A stretch of 64,000 bases of DNA, from contig NZ_CP060497.1 of assembly GCF_014334135.1 (NCBI RefSeq), positions 2,046,001-2,110,000 of the forward strand, written 5' to 3'. The DNA is from Olivibacter sp. SDN3 (GTDB taxonomy: Bacteria > Bacteroidota > Bacteroidia > Sphingobacteriales > Sphingobacteriaceae). Positions within the stretch are counted from its first letter, which is position 1. Each line of letters begins with the position of its first letter. Below the pieces are notes generated by a model that had not been told where the DNA came from, ran no database searches, and was given only the letters and a program-made list of their open reading frames with translations. This document shows, piece after piece, positions 38,891 through 56,834 of this stretch. The position numbers were made by a program, and so were the translations under genes.

Positions 38891-40225
38891 ATGATGTTAC
38901 TTAAAAGAACGATTAAAGCAATACAATGTATAAGCATGGCCGTCTTCCTCATGTGTTGCACAACAACTGTCGACGGTCAACAGTTACAGACCTATATATC
39001 CAACCCCGAAGTTCTCGAATCCAATTTGGAATTTTTACAGAAAGGCAATAATGCCAGTGTAAAACAGGCGATCGAGTTATTAAAAGCCCAGGGAAATACT
39101 ATTATGAAACGTCAACCGCGTTCAGTTGTTGAAAAGTCATATGTTCCACCTAGTGGCGATAAACATGATTTTGTCAGTTTAGCCGGGTATTATTGGCCAG
39201 ATCCAAAGAAGAAAGACGGCTTACCTTATATTCACAAAGATGGTCAGTGGAACCCCGAGGCATCAAAAATAAAAGATCGATCAGATCTCATACAGATGAG
39301 TAAGGATGTAAGAGCCCTAGGTACTTTATATTACTATACCAAAGATGAGCAGTATGCAAAAAAAGCTACTGAGTTTTTAACGAGGTGGTTTTTAAATGAC
39401 AAAACTAAAATGAACCCTAATTTGCAATTCGGGCAAGGCGTTCGGGGTGTCAATGAAGGCCGTTCAGTTGGAATGGTTGATACACGCGACCTTGTAGACT
39501 TACTGGATGGTGTTCAGCTCTTATCGGGATCTCAGGCATGGACCGCATCCAATAATAACCAACTGAAAGCATGGTTCAAAGACTATCTCAACTGGATGTT
39601 AACCAGTAATATTGGGAAAAGCACACAAAATATTACGAACAATATCGGTACTGCGTATCTCGCACAGGTTGTATGTTTTTCGGTATATACCGATCAACCC
39701 CAGATTGGTCGTAAGTATTTTGATCAGATGTTGCCCAAATTGTTTGATGATCAATTTGAGAGTGATGGAAAGCAGCCGCATGAGTTGAAGCGGAAAGATG
39801 CCTGGATGTATTCTAACTCCAATCTAAATCAATGGATGAAGCTGTTGCAGCTCGCGCGTTTGGTAGATTTTGATTTATGGGGATACAGCTACAAAGGGAA
39901 GAGTTTAGAAAAGGCTTATAGCTGGATGTTACCTTACTCGGAAGGTAAAGCACAGTGGACTTACGGTAAAAAAGAGGGAGTTGATATGCGGGCCACATTT
40001 GAAGCAAACAGAAAAAGGGCCGAACTACATCGCGCAACCGGCGGTGCTGAACTTAGTGTACGGAGAAACGTTGCTAATGCCAAAACAAGTGTAGCTAACG
40101 CAAAACAAGGAGTGCTTAAGTTGATCTCAGGCAAATCTTCTGAAAACAATACTGCTAGCGCTACTGCCAAGACAACCATTACCAACAGTAATGCACTCAG
40201 CTTTCTTACAGAAGTTAATTTCTAG
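38891..40225 (+). CDS. Alginate-lyase-like (PL5-type fold) secreted protein with altered active site
   Basis: A 444-residue protein with a signal peptide, possibly lipoprotein type (AVFLMCC). The alginate-lyase fold is seen in DFVSLAGYYWPDPKKKDGLP, GMVDTRDLVDLLDGVQLLSG and DGKQPHELKRKDAWMYSNSN. The family catalytic NNH motif reads N250-N251-I252 (NNIGTAY), so the histidine is absent, while the later Arg and Tyr (ELKRKDAWMYS) are kept. Lyases in EPS loci trim polymer or clear the periplasm. Here lyase activity is uncertain. The last ~60 residues are Ala/Asn/Lys/Ser-rich with a VANAK repeat. Confidence 0.85.
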   Translation: MMLLKRTIKAIQCISMAVFLMCCTTTVDGQQLQTYISNPEVLESNLEFLQKGNNASVKQAIELLKAQGNTIMKRQPRSVVEKSYVPPSGDKHDFVSLAGYYWPDPKKKDGLPYIHKDGQWNPEASKIKDRSDLIQMSKDVRALGTLYYYTKDEQYAKKATEFLTRWFLNDKTKMNPNLQFGQGVRGVNEGRSVGMVDTRDLVDLLDGVQLLSGSQAWTASNNNQLKAWFKDYLNWMLTSNIGKSTQNITNNIGTAYLAQVVCFSVYTDQPQIGRKYFDQMLPKLFDDQFESDGKQPHELKRKDAWMYSNSNLNQWMKLLQLARLVDFDLWGYSYKGKSLEKAYSWMLPYSEGKAQWTYGKKEGVDMRATFEANRKRAELHRATGGAELSVRRNVANAKTSVANAKQGVLKLISGKSSENNTASATAKTTITNSNALSFLTEVNF

Positions 40226-41539: not shown

Positions 41540-42682
41540 ATGAAAATTGTTATTGCCATATCTCATTCGTTTTGCGCTAATTTTATCAGGGGGCAGGCCA
41601 GATACTTAAAAAACAGGGGCTGTGAGGTTGTTATCGTGTCGGCGCCGGGGCCGGAAGTGTCGGCCGTAGCTGATGAAGAAGGTGCGAGGCTGGTGGAGAT
41701 ACCCTTCAGTAGAGAAATTTCATTAGCTAGCGATAGTAAAAGTCTTGTGGCGGTTATCAAGTTTTTGCGAAAAGAAAAGCCATCCATTATTAATGCAGGA
41801 AATCCGAAGACCGGATTTCTCTTTATGCTAGCCAAGCTAATTTTCCCTGCTATCCCTATGATTTTTACATTAAGGGGATTACGGTCAGACACCCTTTCAG
41901 GCTTGAAAAAAAGAGTGGTTACTTTCACTGAGTGGTTGTCCTGCTATTTAGCAGATAGGGTAATTGTTATCAGTCCTTCGTTAAAAACACACGCCGTTCA
42001 GCGAAAAATTTTAAATGAGAGCAAAGCGATTGTGCTAGGTAAAGGGAGCAGTAACGGTGTTGATGTGACGAAATATGCGCTTAATGATGAAAATCAACAA
42101 TCAGGTATTGCGTTACGCGAGCGCCTAGGAGTGGTTAACACTTTCGTTATCGGTTATGTAGGTCGTATTACAAAAGATAAGGGAATCGAGGAGGTATATG
42201 AAGCGTTCAGAATTTGTCGGTCAAAACACGAGAACATCAAGTTAATATTGACAGGTCCAGTTGAAAATGATGATCCGCTCGATGAGCAATTGATGACGGT
42301 GATGAAGGACGATCGTGATGTACTTTTTTTAGGTAAGACACAAGATGTTACGTCAGTATATGCCGCCTATGATCTGTTGGTTTTATATTCCTATCGTGAA
42401 GGTTTTGGCAATGTTGCTTTGGAAGCTTCCAGTATGCAAAGGCCGGTTATCGTCTCCGATATTCCGGGCGGCCGAGATACCACCGAGCATATGAAATCAG
42501 GTATTATCGTTAAACCGAGAGATCCAGAGGCTTTGGCCAAGGCGCTTAACATTTACATTGAAAATCCTTCACTTGCCATTCAGCACGGTGCATACGGCGC
42601 GCGGCGGGCTAGAGATTCGTTTGCTTCAGAAGTTATTTGGGATGGTCAATTCAAACTATATAGGCAATTAATAAAGAGATGA
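41540..42682 (+). CDS. Family 4 glycosyltransferase, CapM/PglA-like
   Basis: A 380-residue GT-B enzyme: MKIVIAISHSFCANFIRGQA, FTLRGLRSDTLSGLKKR, VIGYVGRITKDKGIEEVYEA and SYREGFGNVALEASSMQRPV. Enzymes with this EGFGNVALEAS signature often add the second sugar next to a UDP-FucNAc/QuiNAc-type epimerase and a WecA/WbpL-like transferase, exactly the order seen here. The stop overlaps the next ATG (ATGA). Confidence 0.92.
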   Translation: MKIVIAISHSFCANFIRGQARYLKNRGCEVVIVSAPGPEVSAVADEEGARLVEIPFSREISLASDSKSLVAVIKFLRKEKPSIINAGNPKTGFLFMLAKLIFPAIPMIFTLRGLRSDTLSGLKKRVVTFTEWLSCYLADRVIVISPSLKTHAVQRKILNESKAIVLGKGSSNGVDVTKYALNDENQQSGIALRERLGVVNTFVIGYVGRITKDKGIEEVYEAFRICRSKHENIKLILTGPVENDDPLDEQLMTVMKDDRDVLFLGKTQDVTSVYAAYDLLVLYSYREGFGNVALEASSMQRPVIVSDIPGGRDTTEHMKSGIIVKPRDPEALAKALNIYIENPSLAIQHGAYGARRARDSFASEVIWDGQFKLYRQLIKR

Positions 42683-43569
42683 TACATACGCTATTAACCG
42701 GTTATACAGGCTTTGTGGGTAAAAACTTGATTACTTATTTCAACGATGATCAAGTGGTTTCGGTGAGCAATCTGAACCTGCGTGATGTATTACCACCGCA
42801 GTTGCCTAAGGCTTCTGCGCTAATTCATTTGGCCGGCAAGGCGCACGACCTTAAAAATGCCAGCGATGCAGAAGTCTATTTTAAGGTCAACACAGAACTT
42901 ACTAAAGCGCTGTTTGATCGGTTTTTGATCAGTGATGTGCGTGATTTTATTTATTTCAGCAGTGTAAAGGCAGTGGCAGATACTGTTCATGGAGTGCTGG
43001 AGGAAGACGTGGTTCCATCGCCCATTACCCCTTAGTTGGCGGCAGAAACCTATCTGTTGAAACAAGCCTTGCCTGAAGGGAAACGTTTGTTTATTTTCCG
43101 GCCTTGCATGATCCATGGGCCGGGGAACAAAGGAAATCTCAACCTGTTGTATAAGGTGGTAAAAAAAGGTGTGCCTTATCCTTTGGGAGCCTTTGAGAAC
43201 CAGCGATCTTTCCTATCCATTGATAACTTGCTATTTGTAATAAAAACAATCCTGACCGATCCTTCGGTAGCCGGTGGAATATATAATTTGGCAGATGACT
43301 CTCCTTTATCCACTACAGAGGTTATTAAAATAATAGGTATGGCCAGTCATCGTAAACCGCATATTTGGAGAACACCTGTGGCTTTAGTTAACCTTTTGGC
43401 TAAAGTCGGAGACCTGTTGAGCTTACCGTTAAATAGGGAGCGGTTACAGAAATTAACAGAAAGCTATGTGGTAGATAATGCGAAAATAAAAGCAGCGCTG
43501 GGTATAACAACCTTGCCGACAGCTGCTAAGGATGGCTTGCTCAAAACGATCGAAAGTTTCGAAAATTAA
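42679..43569 (+). pseudogene. NAD-dependent sugar epimerase/reductase split by TAG at the catalytic YxxxK
   Basis: Two ORFs in one frame (42679-43035 and 43036-43569) together form one extended short-chain dehydrogenase. The first half has the NAD-binding TGYTGFVGKNL, LIHLAGKAHDL and FIYFSSVKAVAD; the second has FRPCMIHGPGNKGNL and later domains. Family members read TPYGKSKLAAE; here it reads TP, TAG (43033-43035), LAAE. That equals an in-frame 12-base loss taking out the Tyr and Lys. Likely function before loss: WbpV/WbpK/QuiC-like epimerase or reductase on UDP-4-keto-6-deoxy-HexNAc. Dead unless the sequence is in error. Confidence 0.88.
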
Positions 43570-43573
43570 TTAT

Positions 43574-44527
43574 ATGATATATCTCGCTATTTTTGCGCTG
43601 CTATTGTTCGCTATACTTGTTTATTTCCGTGTCGCTCATCGTTATAATATTATTGACAAGCCCAACCATCGCAGCTCACATACCGCCATTACGATCAGAG
43701 GAGGTGGTATTCTTTTTTATTTTGGAGCTTTGATCTACTTTATCTGGTCGGGCTTTCAGTATCCTTATTTTTTTTGCGGACTTACACTAATGGCCTTGAT
43801 TAGTTTTCTCGACGATATGTATACGTTATCAAATAAACTCCGTATAATTATTCATCTGATAGCGGTTTTTTTGCTTTTTTTCGAAGTAGGCCTGTTCTCC
43901 CTTCCGCTATGGGTTATACCTCTTGCATTGGTCGTAACCATTGGCATCGTCAATGCCTATAACTTCATGGATGGGATCAATGGAATTACCACCATTTACA
44001 GCTTCGCCGTACTATGGTTATTGTGGTTGGTTAACAGGGAGTTAGCTTTCATAGATGAGCGTTTACTCTATTGTACGGGCATTGCTAATGCGGTGTTTGC
44101 ATTTTTCAATTACCGGCAACGGGCTAAATGTTTTGCTGGCGATGTGGGAAGCGTTAGTATGGCCTTTTTGTTGGTATTCATGCTGGCGATGCTTATAAAA
44201 ACCAGTGGAAACTTTGTTTATTTACTCTTTTTAACCGTTTATGGTGTCGATACCGGGTGGACTATCCTACAGCGAATTCGGAAAAAGGAAAACATATTTG
44301 AGGCGCATAGATCCCATTTATACCAATATTTGGCCAATGAGGCAGGTATTAATAAACTTGTGGTCGCTGCAAGCTATGGTTTATTACAGCTGTCTATAGG
44401 TCTGATGGTTGTTTATATCACTAATTATGGTATAACTGTACAAATTATTTCATCTGTAATAATCTTGTTGTTAATGAGTTTTATTTATTTATATATTAAA
44501 AATAATATTGAAAAGAAACTTTTATAA
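43574..44527 (+). CDS. WecA/WbpL-like undecaprenyl-phosphate sugar-1-phosphate transferase
   Basis: About 317 residues, MraY/WecA superfamily. The start is ATG 43574 (MIYLAIFALLLFAILVYFRV), four bases after the epimerase stop; the longer ORF from 43532 would overlap it. Motifs are ISFLDDMYTLS, YNFMDGINGITT, CFAGDVGSVSMAF and HRSHLYQYLAN. WbpL-type enzymes start chains with FucNAc- or QuiNAc-1-phosphate. The upstream broken epimerase would have supplied such a donor. Confidence 0.92.
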   Translation: MIYLAIFALLLFAILVYFRVAHRYNIIDKPNHRSSHTAITIRGGGILFYFGALIYFIWSGFQYPYFFCGLTLMALISFLDDMYTLSNKLRIIIHLIAVFLLFFEVGLFSLPLWVIPLALVVTIGIVNAYNFMDGINGITTIYSFAVLWLLWLVNRELAFIDERLLYCTGIANAVFAFFNYRQRAKCFAGDVGSVSMAFLLVFMLAMLIKTSGNFVYLLFLTVYGVDTGWTILQRIRKKENIFEAHRSHLYQYLANEAGINKLVVAASYGLLQLSIGLMVVYITNYGITVQIISSVIILLLMSFIYLYIKNNIEKKLL

Positions 44528-44698: not shown

Positions 44699-44802
44699 AA
44701 AACTAATTGGCCGTCGACACTGTTTCATCCTTAATACATTGGGGAGCGATCAGTGTTGTTTTAAAAGCAAGGATTGCTGGCATATTAAGAAAAACTAAGC
44801 TA

Positions 44803-46710
44803 ATGAGAAAAATTTTGTTGGATAATAGGGTACTTCCTCGTTGGATAATCTTTCTTATTGATTTAGTACTTGCCAGTTGGTCTTTTGTATTAGCATACTT
44901 TATTTCGGAAAATTTCGAGTTTCCACATATATTGCGTGGACACTTTTTTGTTTACACCAATTTATATGTGGTACTCTGTATACCTGTTTTCTTTCTATTT
45001 AAAGTACACACAGGTTTAATCCGTTATTCCAATATGCGCGATATGTTGCGTATATTCTCTGCGATCTTAACAGCTACTTTACTCTACTCTGTGGTGATCA
45101 AAGGTATTGTGGAACCCTATTTTAATTTTTATAGCCTCAAAGTACGCGAGGTCCTGCTGGTAAATTTCTTTGTAGGCTCATCGTTGCTTATCTTTTTACG
45201 TATCGCAGCAAAGAGCACTTACCAGTATTTTCACGATAAACTTTCCAAGAAAGATAAAACGCATGTATTAATCTACGGTTCGGATGATCGTGCCGTACTG
45301 GTGAAGCAGGCTTTGGAGCGGAGCGCCACTTCAAAATTTGTTATTGTAGGTTTTATTGATACCGATCGGTCTAAGCTCAACAGTTTGGTAGAGCAGAAGA
45401 AAGTCTATCACTTTAAAGATCTACCACGCCTAAAGGCCACGCGTAATATCGATAAGCTACTGTTAATGAACGATCGCCTGGGCGAGCGCGATAAACAAGT
45501 GGTGATCGATCGCTGTTTACGCCTAGATATTCAAGTAGTAACAGCGCCCACGCCAGATAAGTGGCTCTCAGGTACCATCGGCGAGTCGCAGATCAAAAAT
45601 TTACGTATTGAAGATCTGTTGCAGCGCAAGCCTATCGAGATTGATAATGCCCGCGTTAAGGCAGATTTGTTCAATAAAAGGGTATTGGTAACGGGCGCTG
45701 CCGGATCTATCGGTTCCGAAATTGTAAGGCAAGTGCTGAGCTACCGCCCGAAGGTATTGATTTTATGCGATAATGCAGAGTCGCCATTGCACGAGATGCA
45801 GTTAGAGGTAGAAGAGACGTATCCTGAAATACATTGTGAAATTGTTATTTCTGATGTGCGTAACCCCATCCGTATGGAAAGGCTGTTCCGTCAACTCCGT
45901 CCGCAGGTGGTGTACCATGCTGCCGCGTATAAGCATGTGCCTTTGATGGAGAATAACCCCTGTGAAGCCATCAGCACCAACGTTAAAGGTACACGTATTG
46001 TGGCCGATCTGGCCGTGAAATATGGTGCCGAACGTTTCGTGATGATCTCCACAGATAAGGCCGTGAACCCTACCAATGTGATGGGTACAACTAAACGCAT
46101 CGCCGAAATCTATACGCAAAGCCTTAACAACGCGCCTTTTAATAAGAAAACCCGTTTCATTACTACCCGTTTCGGTAATGTGCTGGGCTCCAATGGTTCC
46201 GTCATCCCTCGATTCAGGTCACAGATTGAAAAGGGAGGGCCTATTACCGTAACCCATCCAGAGATTACCCGTTACTTCATGACCATTCCAGAAGCTGTGC
46301 AGTTGGTGTTGGAGGCCGGTACCATGGGTAATGGCGGTGAGATCTTCGTATTTGATATGGGTAAACCTGTAAAGATTGTGAACCTTGCCCGTAAGATGAT
46401 TAAATTGGCGGGTATACAACCGGGCATGATCGATATCGTGTATACCGGATTGCGCCCGGGAGAAAAACTATACGAGGAGCTCTTGAACTCCGAAGAGCTT
46501 ACGTTACCTACTCACCACGAGAAAATAAGTATTGCACAGGTCATCAACCATGATTATGTTGATGCCACGGTGGCTATCGATAAGCTGCTGGCGTTCGGAA
46601 GCGAAGGCGATAATGTGGCGGTAGTGAAACAGATGAAAACCATCGTTCCAGAGTTTGTGAGTAAAAATTCTCCATACGAAGCCTTAGACGCAGAAAGCGA
46701 AATGATTTAA
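44803..46710 (+). CDS. Membrane UDP-GlcNAc 4,6-dehydratase, CapD/WbpM/FlaA1 family
   Basis: About 635 residues from ATG 44803 (MRKILLDNRVLPRWIIFLID). Four N-terminal membrane helices (about 14-150) are followed by a nucleotide-binding middle domain and a C-terminal short-chain dehydrogenase domain: TGAAGSIGSEIVRQVL, the SMK-type site (MISTDKAVNPTNVMGTTKR) and RPGEKLYEELL. It makes UDP-4-keto-6-deoxy-GlcNAc or an epimer, a precursor of QuiNAc, FucNAc and related sugars. G+C is visibly higher than in the glycosyltransferase block (30 of 60 in the row from 46021). Confidence 0.94.
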   Translation: MRKILLDNRVLPRWIIFLIDLVLASWSFVLAYFISENFEFPHILRGHFFVYTNLYVVLCIPVFFLFKVHTGLIRYSNMRDMLRIFSAILTATLLYSVVIKGIVEPYFNFYSLKVREVLLVNFFVGSSLLIFLRIAAKSTYQYFHDKLSKKDKTHVLIYGSDDRAVLVKQALERSATSKFVIVGFIDTDRSKLNSLVEQKKVYHFKDLPRLKATRNIDKLLLMNDRLGERDKQVVIDRCLRLDIQVVTAPTPDKWLSGTIGESQIKNLRIEDLLQRKPIEIDNARVKADLFNKRVLVTGAAGSIGSEIVRQVLSYRPKVLILCDNAESPLHEMQLEVEETYPEIHCEIVISDVRNPIRMERLFRQLRPQVVYHAAAYKHVPLMENNPCEAISTNVKGTRIVADLAVKYGAERFVMISTDKAVNPTNVMGTTKRIAEIYTQSLNNAPFNKKTRFITTRFGNVLGSNGSVIPRFRSQIEKGGPITVTHPEITRYFMTIPEAVQLVLEAGTMGNGGEIFVFDMGKPVKIVNLARKMIKLAGIQPGMIDIVYTGLRPGEKLYEELLNSEELTLPTHHEKISIAQVINHDYVDATVAIDKLLAFGSEGDNVAVVKQMKTIVPEFVSKNSPYEALDAESEMI

Positions 46711-47812: not shown

Positions 47813-49528
47813 ATGGTCCAGAAATTTACTGTCTTAGTCCTAGTAATTTTCGGCAACATCGTCCATCTTTCTGGACAAACCTTGCCCGTTGGTACAACCG
47901 GTCTAGAAGATTACTATCGAAGGGAGCAGTTATTGGGTCGTTTAGACTCTACCCTTTCTTTCAATGTAAGACCACTAAGTCAAGAAGTTCTTCAGCAGCA
48001 CAATATTTTTGATCCTACCGCTCAGCAGGCTACTAGTAACAGCATCCTCTGGGAGGAGGAAGGTAGAGGGCGTGTGCAGCTATTACCTGTAACGTGGCAA
48101 AATCAGGTTACCAGTAGTTATCCTTACGGGTGGAATGACGGTCCAATGGTGCCCACGACCGGTTATCAGACGATGTTCAGTGCCGGTATTTATGCCTCCT
48201 ACAAGTTTCTGAGTGTGCAGCTGCGGCCGGAGGTGGTTTATGCCCAGAACAGTGATTATTTAGGTTTCCGATCGGATGATGGAGGTACGCGAATACGGTA
48301 TGCTCAAATTCTCAATCGTATTGATATGCCTCCTTATTTTGGCGAAGGCTCCTATAGCAAAGCATTTTTAGGACAGAGTAGTGTACGCTTAAACTTTCAT
48401 CCCATCAGTATCGGTGTGTCTACGGAGAATATTTGGTGGGGCCCGGGACGTCGCAACGCCCTGCTCATGAGTAATACTGCTCCCGGTTTTCCGCATATCA
48501 CCCTAAATACCACAAAACCGATCCGAACACCCATTGGTTCTATTGAAGGGCAGTTTGTTACGGGATACACTCGGTCGTCTGGCATTGATCCTACCTTGCG
48601 CTTGGAAGAGGATTATACCAACCTCTATCGACCTAAAGACGGTATTGATCGCCGTTATTTTCAAGGCGTGGTACTCAGTTATCAACCCAAATGGTTACCC
48701 GGTTTGAGTCTCGGTCTGAACCGAAGCGTTATCATTAATAGAAACAATATGGCAGATGGTTTTCGAGGCTATTTTCCTTTGTTTAATGGTCTTAGCAAAT
48801 CCTCTTCACTGGATCCAGAAACTGGAGAGGTGGCAGCTAATCAACGGCGAGATGATGAATATTTCTCAATTTTCGGTCGCTGGGTCATCCCTGACGCTCA
48901 GCTTGAAGTGTACGGGGAGTATGGACGTAATGATGCTTCCTGGGATTTTCGAGATCTATTGGTACAATTGGAACATTCACGGGCTTACATGATTGGTTTT
49001 CGTAAATTGGTGGATTTGCACAAGCCAGAAGGAGATCTGCTACAAGTGGGGATGGAGTTTACGCAGCTGGAGGCACCCAAAACGGCGACGTTACGTGAAA
49101 GTCTTACTTGGTACACGCATTCCCTTGTACGCAACGGTTACACACACCAGGGACAGATTTTAGGTGCCGGCGTAGGCCCTGGCAATAATGTGCAGTCCTT
49201 GGATGTCAGTTGGATACGGGGGATTAAGCAACTAGGGGTGGAGTTTGAGCGATTGGTGCATAACAATGATTTTTTTTACCAATCTTATGGTGCCGCCTAT
49301 GTTGAAACGTTCCGGGATCCGCGGCGAAATTGGGTAGATCTCAGTATAGCACTGCATGGCGTGTGGGATTATAAGAACTTTATCTTCAGTAGCAAGCTTC
49401 ATTTTATGAAAGCCTTTAACTACCAATATGCCATAGAAGAGAATAATGATCCGATGTTGTACTGGAACTATAGAGCGCAAGATAAGGGTAACGTACAGTT
49501 TCAGCTTGGGGCTAGTTATCGATTTTAA
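47813..49528 (+). CDS. Capsule-assembly Wzi-family outer-membrane protein (copy 3)
   Basis: A 571-residue Wzi paralogue. Signal peptide to about residue 21 (HLSGQ), mature start TLPVGTTGLEDYYRREQLLG, core blocks STENIWWGPGRRNALLMSN and APGFPHITLNTTKPI, C-terminal barrel end QFQLGASYRF. It shares more wording with copy 4 (WWGPGRRN) than with copies 1 and 2 (WWGPGLRN, WWGPGMKN). It is followed by copy 4 after 87 bases. Confidence 0.9.
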   Translation: MVQKFTVLVLVIFGNIVHLSGQTLPVGTTGLEDYYRREQLLGRLDSTLSFNVRPLSQEVLQQHNIFDPTAQQATSNSILWEEEGRGRVQLLPVTWQNQVTSSYPYGWNDGPMVPTTGYQTMFSAGIYASYKFLSVQLRPEVVYAQNSDYLGFRSDDGGTRIRYAQILNRIDMPPYFGEGSYSKAFLGQSSVRLNFHPISIGVSTENIWWGPGRRNALLMSNTAPGFPHITLNTTKPIRTPIGSIEGQFVTGYTRSSGIDPTLRLEEDYTNLYRPKDGIDRRYFQGVVLSYQPKWLPGLSLGLNRSVIINRNNMADGFRGYFPLFNGLSKSSSLDPETGEVAANQRRDDEYFSIFGRWVIPDAQLEVYGEYGRNDASWDFRDLLVQLEHSRAYMIGFRKLVDLHKPEGDLLQVGMEFTQLEAPKTATLRESLTWYTHSLVRNGYTHQGQILGAGVGPGNNVQSLDVSWIRGIKQLGVEFERLVHNNDFFYQSYGAAYVETFRDPRRNWVDLSIALHGVWDYKNFIFSSKLHFMKAFNYQYAIEENNDPMLYWNYRAQDKGNVQFQLGASYRF

Positions 49529-49615: not shown

Positions 49616-51331
49616 ATGAATGCAATTCGTTACAACATATGTTTATTGGTAGCTGCGTTATCCTTTTCCGTGGTATACCAGCTCCGTGCGCAGGTATTAC
49701 CTGTGGGTTTGCCTGCCTATGAAGAATGGTACCGTCGCGAACAATTATTGGGCAGGGTAGATTCTACCGTTTCTTTTGCTATCCGGCCATTAAGCAGTAA
49801 TGTGTTGATGAGGCAGCGCATCTATCAGACGGATGATTCGCTTGCCTATAGCGATCGGAGCACGCAGCCTATTTTTAACGGTCAAGGTGTATTGCAGTTA
49901 ATGCCTGTAGTATTGGAGGGACAATATACCAGTGCCTATCCCTATGGTTGGAACGATGGTCCGATGGTACCTACGCGAGGCTTTCAAACGCTATTCAGTG
50001 CAGGTCTATACGCCTCCTATAAGTTTATCAGCGTGCAGTTTCGGCCAGAGTTTGTGGCGGCACAGAACCGTGCTTACATGGGCTTTGATGGAAAAACAGA
50101 CCTTTCCTGGGAAGCGTGGTATAATCAGGGCAATAACATTGATATGCCTGAGCAATTTGGTGATGGTGCTTATACAAGAGCTTTTTTAGGTCAAAGTGCC
50201 GTGCGTTTGAATTTTGATCCCGTATCTGTAGGGCTCTCTACCGAAAATATCTGGTGGGGCCCTGGCCGGCGTAATTCCCTGCTCATGAGTAACACCGCAC
50301 CTGGTTTTCTACATGCAACGGTGAATACCACCCGTCCGGTACGTACCGGTATTGGTTCATTTGAGGGACAACTCATTGCCGGTCAATTGAAGGGATCCGG
50401 ATTTACTCCTACCCCTTTGGGCAATCCAAACCACTACGATGAATACTATAACCCTAAACGTGACGATTGGCGTTACCTTTCGGGTATCGTCTTGTCATAT
50501 CAGCCCAAATGGTTGCCCGGATTATCTTTAGGACTTACACGGAGTTTTGTGCGTTATCATAATGATGGCGGTAATTCCCTGAATAACCTCCTGCCTTTGC
50601 TAGGGTCGGGCTCGGCTTGGAAAAACCAGGGTGACCCCGATCGGCCGGTTAATGGGGAAGCTGAAAAAATGCGCGATCAGTATGGTTCTTTTTTTGGACG
50701 ATGGGTATTTCCGAAGGGAAAAGCTGAGATCTATGCGGAGTACGGACGTACCGATCCACCTTGGAACAGTCGCGACCGGGTGGTGCAGTTGGAACATTCT
50801 AGGGCCTATGTGATCGGTTTTACTAAGTTAGTACCTTTAAAAAGCGCAGAGCATGAAGATTTGTTGCAGTTTAACTTAGAATTTACACAGCTGGAGCGTT
50901 CACGTACCAGCCAAGTACGACGTAGCCCGTCATGGTATGTTGATGAAAACGTACGTCATGGTTATACTCATCGGGGGCAGATTTTAGGCGCCGGTATTGG
51001 GCCGGGCAGCAATTTGCAATCAGGCAGTATCAGTTGGGTAAGGGGTGTCAAACAGCTAGGACTGCAGCTGGAGCGTTTGGTACACAACAATGATTTTTAT
51101 TACGATGCCAGCAGAGATATTCGTCGCAACTGGGTAGATATCGGTGGAGCATTGTATGGCGTGTGGGATTATCGGCAGTTGATATTTACGGGCAGTTTAC
51201 AGTACATGCGCGCGCTTAATTACCAGTGGGAGTTAGAAGGCGGGCATGGGAGCGGTGCCGATTTTTGGGATATCGACCCACAGGATAAGAACAATGTGCA
51301 ATTCCGTGTAGCGGTAATGTACCGGTTTTAG
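49616..51331 (+). CDS. Capsule-assembly Wzi-family outer-membrane protein (copy 4)
   Basis: A 571-residue Wzi paralogue, tandem to copy 3. Signal peptide ends near VVYQLRAQ, mature start QVLPVGLPAYEEWYRREQLL, core STENIWWGPGRRNSLLMSN and APGFLHATVNTTRPV. The usual FPH of the block is FLH here. It ends with AVMYRF. Likely a surface lectin or anchor for one of the polymers made by the locus. Confidence 0.9.
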   Translation: MNAIRYNICLLVAALSFSVVYQLRAQVLPVGLPAYEEWYRREQLLGRVDSTVSFAIRPLSSNVLMRQRIYQTDDSLAYSDRSTQPIFNGQGVLQLMPVVLEGQYTSAYPYGWNDGPMVPTRGFQTLFSAGLYASYKFISVQFRPEFVAAQNRAYMGFDGKTDLSWEAWYNQGNNIDMPEQFGDGAYTRAFLGQSAVRLNFDPVSVGLSTENIWWGPGRRNSLLMSNTAPGFLHATVNTTRPVRTGIGSFEGQLIAGQLKGSGFTPTPLGNPNHYDEYYNPKRDDWRYLSGIVLSYQPKWLPGLSLGLTRSFVRYHNDGGNSLNNLLPLLGSGSAWKNQGDPDRPVNGEAEKMRDQYGSFFGRWVFPKGKAEIYAEYGRTDPPWNSRDRVVQLEHSRAYVIGFTKLVPLKSAEHEDLLQFNLEFTQLERSRTSQVRRSPSWYVDENVRHGYTHRGQILGAGIGPGSNLQSGSISWVRGVKQLGLQLERLVHNNDFYYDASRDIRRNWVDIGGALYGVWDYRQLIFTGSLQYMRALNYQWELEGGHGSGADFWDIDPQDKNNVQFRVAVMYRF

Positions 51332-51433: not shown

Positions 51434-52471
51434 ATGAGAATAAACCTTACAAAAGCAAGTGTATTTGCGAAAAAGAAGCTCCGCAAGCGAGCGATCATTA
51501 TTGGCGATGGGTCAACGGGCAAGAATTTGTTGAACTTTTTGAGGCAGCACAAGCAATACGGTTATGATGTGGTCAAATACATCAATGGAGCCGTCATAGC
51601 CAAGGCTAATGGGCGTGCGGCAAAAAAGATTAACAGCATTGCTATTGGCAATGGGGCCATTGGTTATATCGATGAAGTTTTCGTTGCCCAAAGTGATCGT
51701 AACAGTTACAACTTACACGAGATTATTAGCTTACTGCGAAAATACGCGGTACGTTTAAGGGTGGTGGGCAAGCAGGAGATGACTGGTCAATCTTTCCAAA
51801 GTATGACCATGTTGGGTGAGTTCCCACTGTTGAGTGTGCGTAACGAACCCTTGGAAAATCCCGACAATCTTTTCGTGAAGCGCTGGTTTGATGTGGCTTT
51901 TAGCGTAACTGTGCTGCTGTTGATCTGTTCATGGCTATTTCCGCTCATCGCCATTCTCGTTAAAATTAACTCCAGGGGCCCCGTGTTTTTCAAGCAAGAG
52001 CGTTGGGGCAAGCGTAACCGCCGTTTTACCTGTTTAAAATTTCGTTCAATGTCTTTAGCGTCTTGCATGGAAGATCAGAACGGAAATTTCCGGCAGGTTA
52101 GTAAGGGCGACAAGCGTGTAACCGCTGTGGGACGCTTACTGCGTAGGACCAATTTGGATGAGTTGCCGCAGTTTATCAATGTATTGGCCGGTGATATGAG
52201 TGTGGTAGGGCCAAGGCCACATGCTTCTATCATGAACCTAGAATCGCTTCACACCATTGACGCCTATTTGGTAAGACATCAGGCCAAACCCGGTATTACA
52301 GGTTGGGCACAGGTTAATGGATTTAGGGGAGAGTCTCGTGATGTAGATCAGCTGAGAGCGCGCGTAAAGTATGATGTCTGGTATATTGAACATTGGTCTT
52401 TCCTGCTTGATCTCAAAATCATTGCATTAACCGTTGTAAAGATGTTTACCGGAGATAAGAAAGCTTATTAG
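51434..52471 (+). CDS. Short polyprenyl-phosphate sugar-phosphate transferase lacking the N-terminal membrane domain
   Basis: A 345-residue bacterial sugar transferase. It starts directly in the soluble domain ([20 protein letters not shown]) and keeps one hydrophobic helix (about 155-175) and the catalytic part: [40 protein letters not shown] and [15 protein letters not shown]. The full-length paralogue at 55416 has four more helices in its first ~130 residues. The catalytic core is intact, so it may still start a chain, as minimal PglC-type enzymes do. It follows Wzi copy 4 by 102 bases. Confidence 0.9.
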
Positions 52472-55415: not shown

Positions 55416-56834
55416 ATGAACATAAGTAGTCGGAGTTTTTTCTATTTCACCCACGCGGTAACCGATTTGGTTATTCTGGTAGTTTCTTTTTTTGCAGCGA
55501 TATATATCAGTGACGATTTTCAGCTTCATCACATAGCGCTGTATGATCTCGGTTTTCTCCTATTTTTGTTATGTGGTTGGCATTTTACCGCGCGATCTAA
55601 CCGTTTATACGAGGATAAAGTCCGCGAGAATCAAATGCGTGAACTTTTCAAAACGCTTAATACCATTTTATGGCAGATCATGTTGGCCATTCTGTTTATC
55701 TTTGTTATTAAGGAAAAAGAGTATTCGCGCACTTTCGTGTTTACGTATGGTATCTTGCTGGGTTTTTTGATCCCTTTGAGTAAAATTACGCTCAAACGTG
55801 TTTATATTCTGCTATACCGTAATGGTTATCTGCGTAAGCGGGCGCTGGTTATCGGTGGCGGCGAGAATGGTCAGGCATTTTGTAAGTACCTGCGTGAGAA
55901 TAAGTATTATGGATATGAGCTGGTGCGTTTTATACATGGCGAACTTCAGCTGTCTAACGACGATACGCAAGGCTATGCCGGAAGGACCTTGATGGTAGGT
56001 GATAGGCCTCTGCCCGATATTAACGAGATTGATGAAGTGTTTATTACCGAATCGCCCGATGGGCATTTCAATACGCGGGAGATAGCATCCGTATTGAGTT
56101 CACATGCGGTGCGTTTACGTATCATCCCCAGCATGTTCAATATGAGTTCTTCCGGCATGTACAGTTTCAGTATGCTGGGCGGTTTCCCTTTGCTCAGCGT
56201 GCGTAATGAACCCTTGGAAGACGTGTACAATCGGGCGGCAAAGCGTGCCTTTGATGTATTCTTCAGCCTTTTTGTACTTGTGTTTATATGTTCCTGGTTG
56301 TTTCCCATTATCGCTATTGCCATCAAGCTCAATTCTCCGGGGCCTATCTTTTACCGTCAGGAACGTTGGGGTAAGCGTAATAGACCCTTTTTGTGCTATA
56401 AGTTCAGATCGATGTATGTGAAAGCACCCAACATCAGTACTGAGGGCAAGTTTCAGCAGGCCACAAAAGAAGATCCCCGTATAACCAAGGTAGGGAAGTT
56501 CTTAAGGAAGAGCAGCTTGGATGAATTTCCACAGTTTCTCAATGTGTTATCGGGAGAGATGAGTGTCGTAGGTCCGAGGCCGCATGCTTCCCTCATGAAT
56601 ATCGAGTCTACGCATTATGTCAAGAACTATTTGGTGCGGCATCAGGCCAAACCCGGTATTACCGGTTGGGCGCAGGTAAATGGATTGCGCGGCGAATCAG
56701 CAGACCCAAACTTGCTTAAGGCCCGTATTCAGCATGATATCTGGTATATTGAGCATTGGTCGTTTTTGCTCGATCTAAAGATTATTTTCCTCACTTTTTG
56801 GCGCATGGTAATAGGCGATAAACAAGCCTATTGA
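55416..56834 (+). CDS. Polyprenyl glycosylphosphotransferase, WcaJ-like, full length
   Basis: A 472-residue membrane enzyme. Four N-terminal helices (about 10-130), a Rossmann-like middle domain (RALVIGGGENGQAFCKYLRE), a fifth helix (about 280-300) and the catalytic part: [40 protein letters not shown] and [15 protein letters not shown]. It attaches the first sugar-1-phosphate to undecaprenyl phosphate. It is the intact paralogue of the protein at 51434. It is transcribed away from the two-component system. Confidence 0.95.
   Translation: MNISSRSFFYFTHAVTDLVILVVSFFAAIYISDDFQLHHIALYDLGFLLFLLCGWHFTARSNRLYEDKVRENQMRELFKTLNTILWQIMLAILFIFVIKEKEYSRTFVFTYGILLGFLIPLSKITLKRVYILLYRNGYLRKRALVIGGGENGQAFCKYLRENKYYGYELVRFIHGELQLSNDDTQGYAGRTLMVGDRPLPDINEIDEVFITESPDGHFNTREIASVLSSHAVRLRIIPSMFNMSSSGMYSFSMLGGFPLLSVRNEPLEDVYNRAAKRAFDVFFSLFVLVFICSWLFPIIAIAIKLNSPGPIFYRQERWGKRNRPFLCYKFRSMYVKAPNISTEGKFQQATKEDPRITKVGKFLRKSSLDEFPQFLNVLSGEMSVVGPRPHASLMNIESTHYVKNYLVRHQAKPGITGWAQVNGLRGESADPNLLKARIQHDIWYIEHWSFLLDLKIIFLTFWRMVIGDKQAY

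Follow-up and report, generated by a model that had tools for sequence, protein, structure and literature searches.

The 64-kb stretch of the Olivibacter sp. SDN3 genome analyzed here (contig NZ_CP060497.1, positions 2,046,001 to 2,110,000; hereafter the window, 41.5% G+C) contains a gene for a short-chain dehydrogenase/reductase (SDR) with a stop codon at the place of its catalytic motif. We estimate a probability of roughly 0.7 that this gene was WbpV/WreQ-like, encoding an SDR that modifies a nucleotide sugar at C4, and that it was recently inactivated, the simplest cause being one 12-base in-frame deletion. Comparison with intact relatives indicates that the inactivation is real, recent, and sharply localized; it is known from one assembly. 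The gene probably served rare-sugar synthesis for a surface polysaccharide, and its enzyme is probably dead.

The frame (42679-43569, forward strand) opens with ATG at 42679 and extends to TAA at 43567-43569, with a lone in-frame TAG at 43033-43035. A first-pass annotation of the window had described it as open on both sides of this TAG, and 118 open codons indeed precede the stop and 177 follow it. The 5' part (42679-43035), which is the nucleotide-binding half, carries the N-terminal GxxGxxG motif as GYTGFVG and matches the Pfam Epimerase family over residues 5-115 with 43.8 bits (cutoff, 20.9). The 3' part (43036-43569, same strand) is open to its own TAA and is at most 67% identical to intact relatives among the matches listed. 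Searched alone, it matched no Pfam family and a single NCBIfam model, far under the cutoff. Reassigning TAG as a sense codon was rejected as an explanation, as TAG terminates 16 of 42 long open reading frames (ORFs), taken from a list of 47.

Alignment with 57 intact relatives places the lesion at the active site. Where most relatives read TPYGxSK-x-x-AE or similar, the window reads TP-stop-LAAE; four residues are missing and the stop occupies the fifth position of the motif Y-G-x-[SA]-K. This gap occurs in 0/57 intact relatives, all of which have the catalytic YxxxK; at its Y, G, and K positions the motif is invariant (57/57 each). The annotated loss of YxxxK, and with it the knockout of the SDR, is thus upheld. 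Read-through of the TAG would not rescue the enzyme because Y and K would still be absent. The annotation had further attributed the lesion to a 12-base deletion, and the four missing residues agree with that size. One in-frame deletion is the simplest reading but lacks proof: the nearest relatives are only 62% identical over the protein, too distant to recover the ancestral bases or to prove a single event. This weighs against the deletion as stated, and a nonsense mutation combined with an independent in-frame deletion could also have produced the lesion.

The remainder of the gene resembles a working one. The relatives were drawn from 66 loci, of which nine were dropped: two were too distant (L003 and L034), two were cut by contig ends (L019 and L035), one was interrupted (L031), one was broken (L097), and three were duplicates (L046, L098, and L099). 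The alignment has 84 columns with conservation of 95% or more among the relatives. The window retains 81 of them, the three missing ones being the motif residues Y, G, and K. By leave-one-out scoring, intact relatives themselves miss 0 to 5 such columns, which argues that the rest of the gene is like that of a functional copy. As the misses are confined to Y, G, and K, the lesion is sharply localized and recent. On average, the window is 51% identical to the relatives before the lesion and 60% after it, compared with 50% and 61% among the relatives themselves, and no decay is visible in either half of the aligned gene. The 81 kept codons represent 187 nonsynonymous sites, which gives a 95% bound of ∼0.016 neutral substitutions per site since the lesion, assuming that constraint on the gene ceased with the lesion.

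The conservation of the second half could also be taken as a sign that each half is a working protein, with translation of the second from the TTG at 43036, which lies in frame immediately after the TAG. We consider this extremely unlikely. Neither half holds the catalytic Y and K, a recent loss explains the conservation, and a single long frame is found in 148 of the 150 matches listed. In that family search, 317/399 genomes had a match at an E value of 0.001 or better. The 148 frames are at least 295 amino acids (aa) long, and the two short ones are those of the window (177 aa) and of one genome of another genus (G333; 195 aa).

The same evidence of recent constraint bears on whether the lesion stems from faulty sequencing or assembly, or became fixed only in the laboratory culture that was sequenced, the gene being functional in the natural strain. 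The intactness of the other 81 conserved columns implies that constraint lasted until very recently, as an artefact or culture mutation would predict, and the lesion is known from a single assembly. However, a 12-base loss away from a homopolymer is unlike the usual read error, the genome is assembled as one contig with 99.99% completeness, and the neighborhood is filled by long ORFs, although another of the window's genes (51434-52471) also looks truncated. On balance, an artefact or culture mutation is rather unlikely.

A reversible, phase-variable off state, with an intact gene in part of the population, is very unlikely. Phase variation is frequent among surface polysaccharide genes, and the copy in G333 (locus L097, reverse strand) is a second, independently broken one, in which the reading frame is altered close to five consecutive A's, shortly before an intact YGKSK. 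Misassembly, phase variation, or genuine loss could account for that lesion. In the window gene, however, tandem repeats were looked for and none were found. A lone flanking pair of 9-base sequences, 89% alike and spaced by 66 bases, has the wrong spacing for a loss of 12 bases and may be due to chance, and the site has no unusual fold.

Three further copies flagged as containing one internal TAA or TGA (G031, G098, and G092) were rejected as broken genes. Their frames are 301, 300, and 310 aa long, YxxxK is present, and the flagged codon is the normal stop at the C terminus. Separately, two loci of one metagenome-assembled genome (bin-1232; L031:2100-2760 and L026:4497-5510) carry a repeat-like insert right after the YGESK stretch. 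The insert is in frame in L026, giving a 338-codon frame; that of L031 comes after a stop, and the copy is interrupted.

The annotation had called the gene an epimerase. Its genomic context and the literature lean instead toward a C4-ketoreductase, while family models do not decide the matter. Upstream lies a GT4-type (CapM-like) glycosyltransferase gene (41540-42682, forward strand; Pfam Glyco_trans_1_4, 103 bits; Glycos_transf_1, 102 bits), the TGA of which shares bases with the broken gene's ATG start codon (ATGA). Downstream, on the same strand, is an intact frame for a WbpL/WecA-like polyprenyl-phosphate sugar-1-phosphate transferase (43574-44527; Pfam Glycos_transf_4, 72 bits). It is followed by an intact frame for a WbpM/CapD-like candidate UDP-N-acetylglucosamine 4,6-dehydratase (44707-46710; Pfam Polysacc_synt_2, 397 bits), for which the PseB and FnlA models score under their cutoffs. 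These Pfam matches agree with the arrangement described in the first-pass annotation. A similar order is present in a second genome of the genus (G004), where an intact 300-aa orthologue (L101:6579-7481) precedes WbpL-like and CapD/WbpM-like genes. The window's WbpL-like protein is 61% identical to its orthologue there over residues 1-316, and the CapD/WbpM-like protein is 79% identical across all 636 residues of its orthologue, the start Met of which corresponds to window position 44803. The G004 SDR is 55% identical to the broken gene product over residues 3-299. Unlike the window gene, it has YGRSK within a single open frame of 300 codons; this intact same-genus orthologue stood in for the sister strains that the annotation had proposed comparing. 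The gene preceding it differs from that in the window, being a 277-aa ORF judged by eye to encode a glycosyltransferase.

Across the relatives, 29 of the 57 loci with 900 or more bases of downstream sequence have a WbpL-like gene that begins within 200 bases, and 10 of the 22 loci with 4,500 or more such bases contain a CapD-like gene. These 57 loci are a different set from the 57 of the alignment, since the synteny count omitted L035, L046, L098, L099, and loci with <900 bases downstream and retained L003, L031, L034, and L097. A Bacteroides finegoldii plasmid is annotated with a glycosyltransferase, an SDR, and a family 4 transferase in that order, and an Escherichia coli plasmid with the same three followed by a sugar epimerase/dehydratase.

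Parallels with characterized pathways rest on context and on the literature. In Pseudomonas aeruginosa, WbpV is encoded directly ahead of a WbpL-type initiating transferase, as is the window gene. PMC3726653 reports WbpV as the proposed 4-reductase for UDP-N-acetyl-D-quinovosamine (UDP-D-QuiNAc) and has WbpL initiating with N-acetyl-D-fucosamine (D-FucNAc) or D-QuiNAc; PMC4773840 describes the wbpVL operon and places WbpV in the UDP-QuiNAc pathway. The candidate counterpart in the window is broken. WreQ, the UDP-QuiNAc 4-reductase of Rhizobium etli, is likened to the window gene by the same proposed step after a 4,6-dehydratase, although its host belongs to a different phylum. The wbpV-wbpL-wbpM-type context, taken with these two papers, makes a WbpV/WreQ-like 4-ketoreductase candidate our preferred assignment over a plain epimerase, without proving it. 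Among solved structures, the best relative of an intact orthologue is the GDP-6-deoxy-D-mannose reductase 6x3b (E value, 6.7e-15), with the YGxSK of the orthologue aligned to the YxxxK of 6x3b; the score is only 58 bits, however, and the substrate is different.

Several observations weigh against this assignment. No NCBIfam model reached its cutoff for either of two intact orthologues. No WbpL-like gene lies within 200 bases at 28 of the 57 synteny loci, although in four of these one sits ∼0.6 to 1.1 kb further on. In a third genome of the genus (G001, locus L003), a distant SDR (27% identity, YAQSK) precedes a WbpL-like gene whose product is 67% identical to that of the window; thus, the slot can house different SDRs. 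PMC3726653 itself also describes WbpV as a protein whose role is not yet known. If the gene instead encoded a 4-epimerase (of the UDP-FucNAc or N-acetylgalactosamine type), the lesion would be identical but the reaction would differ, and an epimer donor would be lost. GalE is the top NCBIfam match of both orthologues, at 47.8 and 58.2 bits, far under the cutoff of 262.3; several of the solved matches are UDP-glucose 4-epimerases, ranking after 6x3b and an NAD-dependent epimerase/dehydratase family protein (6wjb); and WbpV is termed an epimerase (UDP-galactose-4-epimerase) in PMC4773840. Because the top solved match is a 4-ketoreductase and both the WbpM-WbpL neighborhood and PMC3726653 favor a 4-reductase, we regard a 4-epimerase as possible but doubtful.

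The annotation had suggested looking for a second intact copy, and no closely similar one was found in the genome. When both halves were searched against their own genome (one contig, 6.12 Mb), only the broken gene itself matched, and the G004 protein retrieved one extra weak match (34% over residues 43-133). The genome contains 53 matches to Pfam Epimerase, none of them closely similar to the broken gene, and a distant SDR elsewhere could act on the same substrate. The SDR found in the slot in G001 was rejected as a lead to a replacement, as its best match in the SDN3 genome is the broken gene (29%) and the other three are 23 to 28% identical. The WbpL-like gene has one further match in the genome, at 26%.

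A changed bacterial surface commonly arises via loss of one sugar-nucleotide enzyme, and the surface coat of this strain may change through the loss described here. With a WbpV/WreQ-like 4-ketoreductase as the preferred assignment, a 12-base in-frame deletion would take out the active-site Y and K and leave TAG. Loss of the reductase would then allow the 4-keto intermediate to accumulate, and the WbpL-like enzyme might use this intermediate poorly, or instead of the reduced sugar. Most probably, the polymer of this locus would as a consequence be altered or diminished. We infer the exact reaction, the single deletion event, and this consequence. Two outcomes are plausible: either no donor forms and no polymer is made via this route, or the 4-keto intermediate is used. 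The first would correspond to the block of a FucNAc/QuiNAc-type donor put forward in the first-pass annotation. That block is plausible, but the wreQ mutant of R. etli, of which the window's gene loss would be a natural counterpart, bears a 4-keto derivative in place of the reduced sugar (PMC4514872). Capnocytophaga canimorsus lost its capsule and had an altered O-chain when genes for making or transferring QuiNAc, FucNAc, or galacturonic acid were deleted (PMC5156936). A switch of polymer type, which the annotation had raised as a possibility, is conjectural.

The early stop lies 538 bases ahead of the WbpL-like start at 43574, which itself is 4 bases past the old stop; some polarity, with reduced translation of the WbpL-like gene, is therefore possible. 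Because the dehydratase and transferase frames are intact and the broken frame is undecayed, the strain could reveal the polymer of a 4-ketoreductase mutant in nature. The event is an ordinary gene loss, though an unusually clean one, and its interest lies in the sugar now in the polymer. Recent selection, for example by a coat-binding phage, might have favored loss of the reductase with retention of the dehydratase and initiating transferase, so that the polymer now starts with a 4-keto-6-deoxy sugar; we consider this scenario unlikely. P. aeruginosa wbpV mutants are resistant to phage K8 (PMC4773840), and a phage as the selective cause of the loss in this strain is speculation.

The window also contains WcaJ-like initiating transferases, and thus another polymer could be made. 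One is full length (55416-56834). The other (51434-52471, forward strand; 345 codons) begins at model position 120. Its best homologues in four other genomes of the genus, one per genome, have frames of 477 to 508 aa, so its N-terminal membrane part seems to be missing; weaker homologues with frames of 208 to 372 aa mostly span the catalytic part. Elsewhere within the polysaccharide cluster, the forward strand encodes an alginate-lyase family protein at 38891-40225 (PF05426, 271 bits). Two tandem ORFs of 571 aa (47813-49528 and 49616-51331, forward strand) are 53% identical to one another and presumably represent a duplicated outer-membrane capsule-assembly protein.
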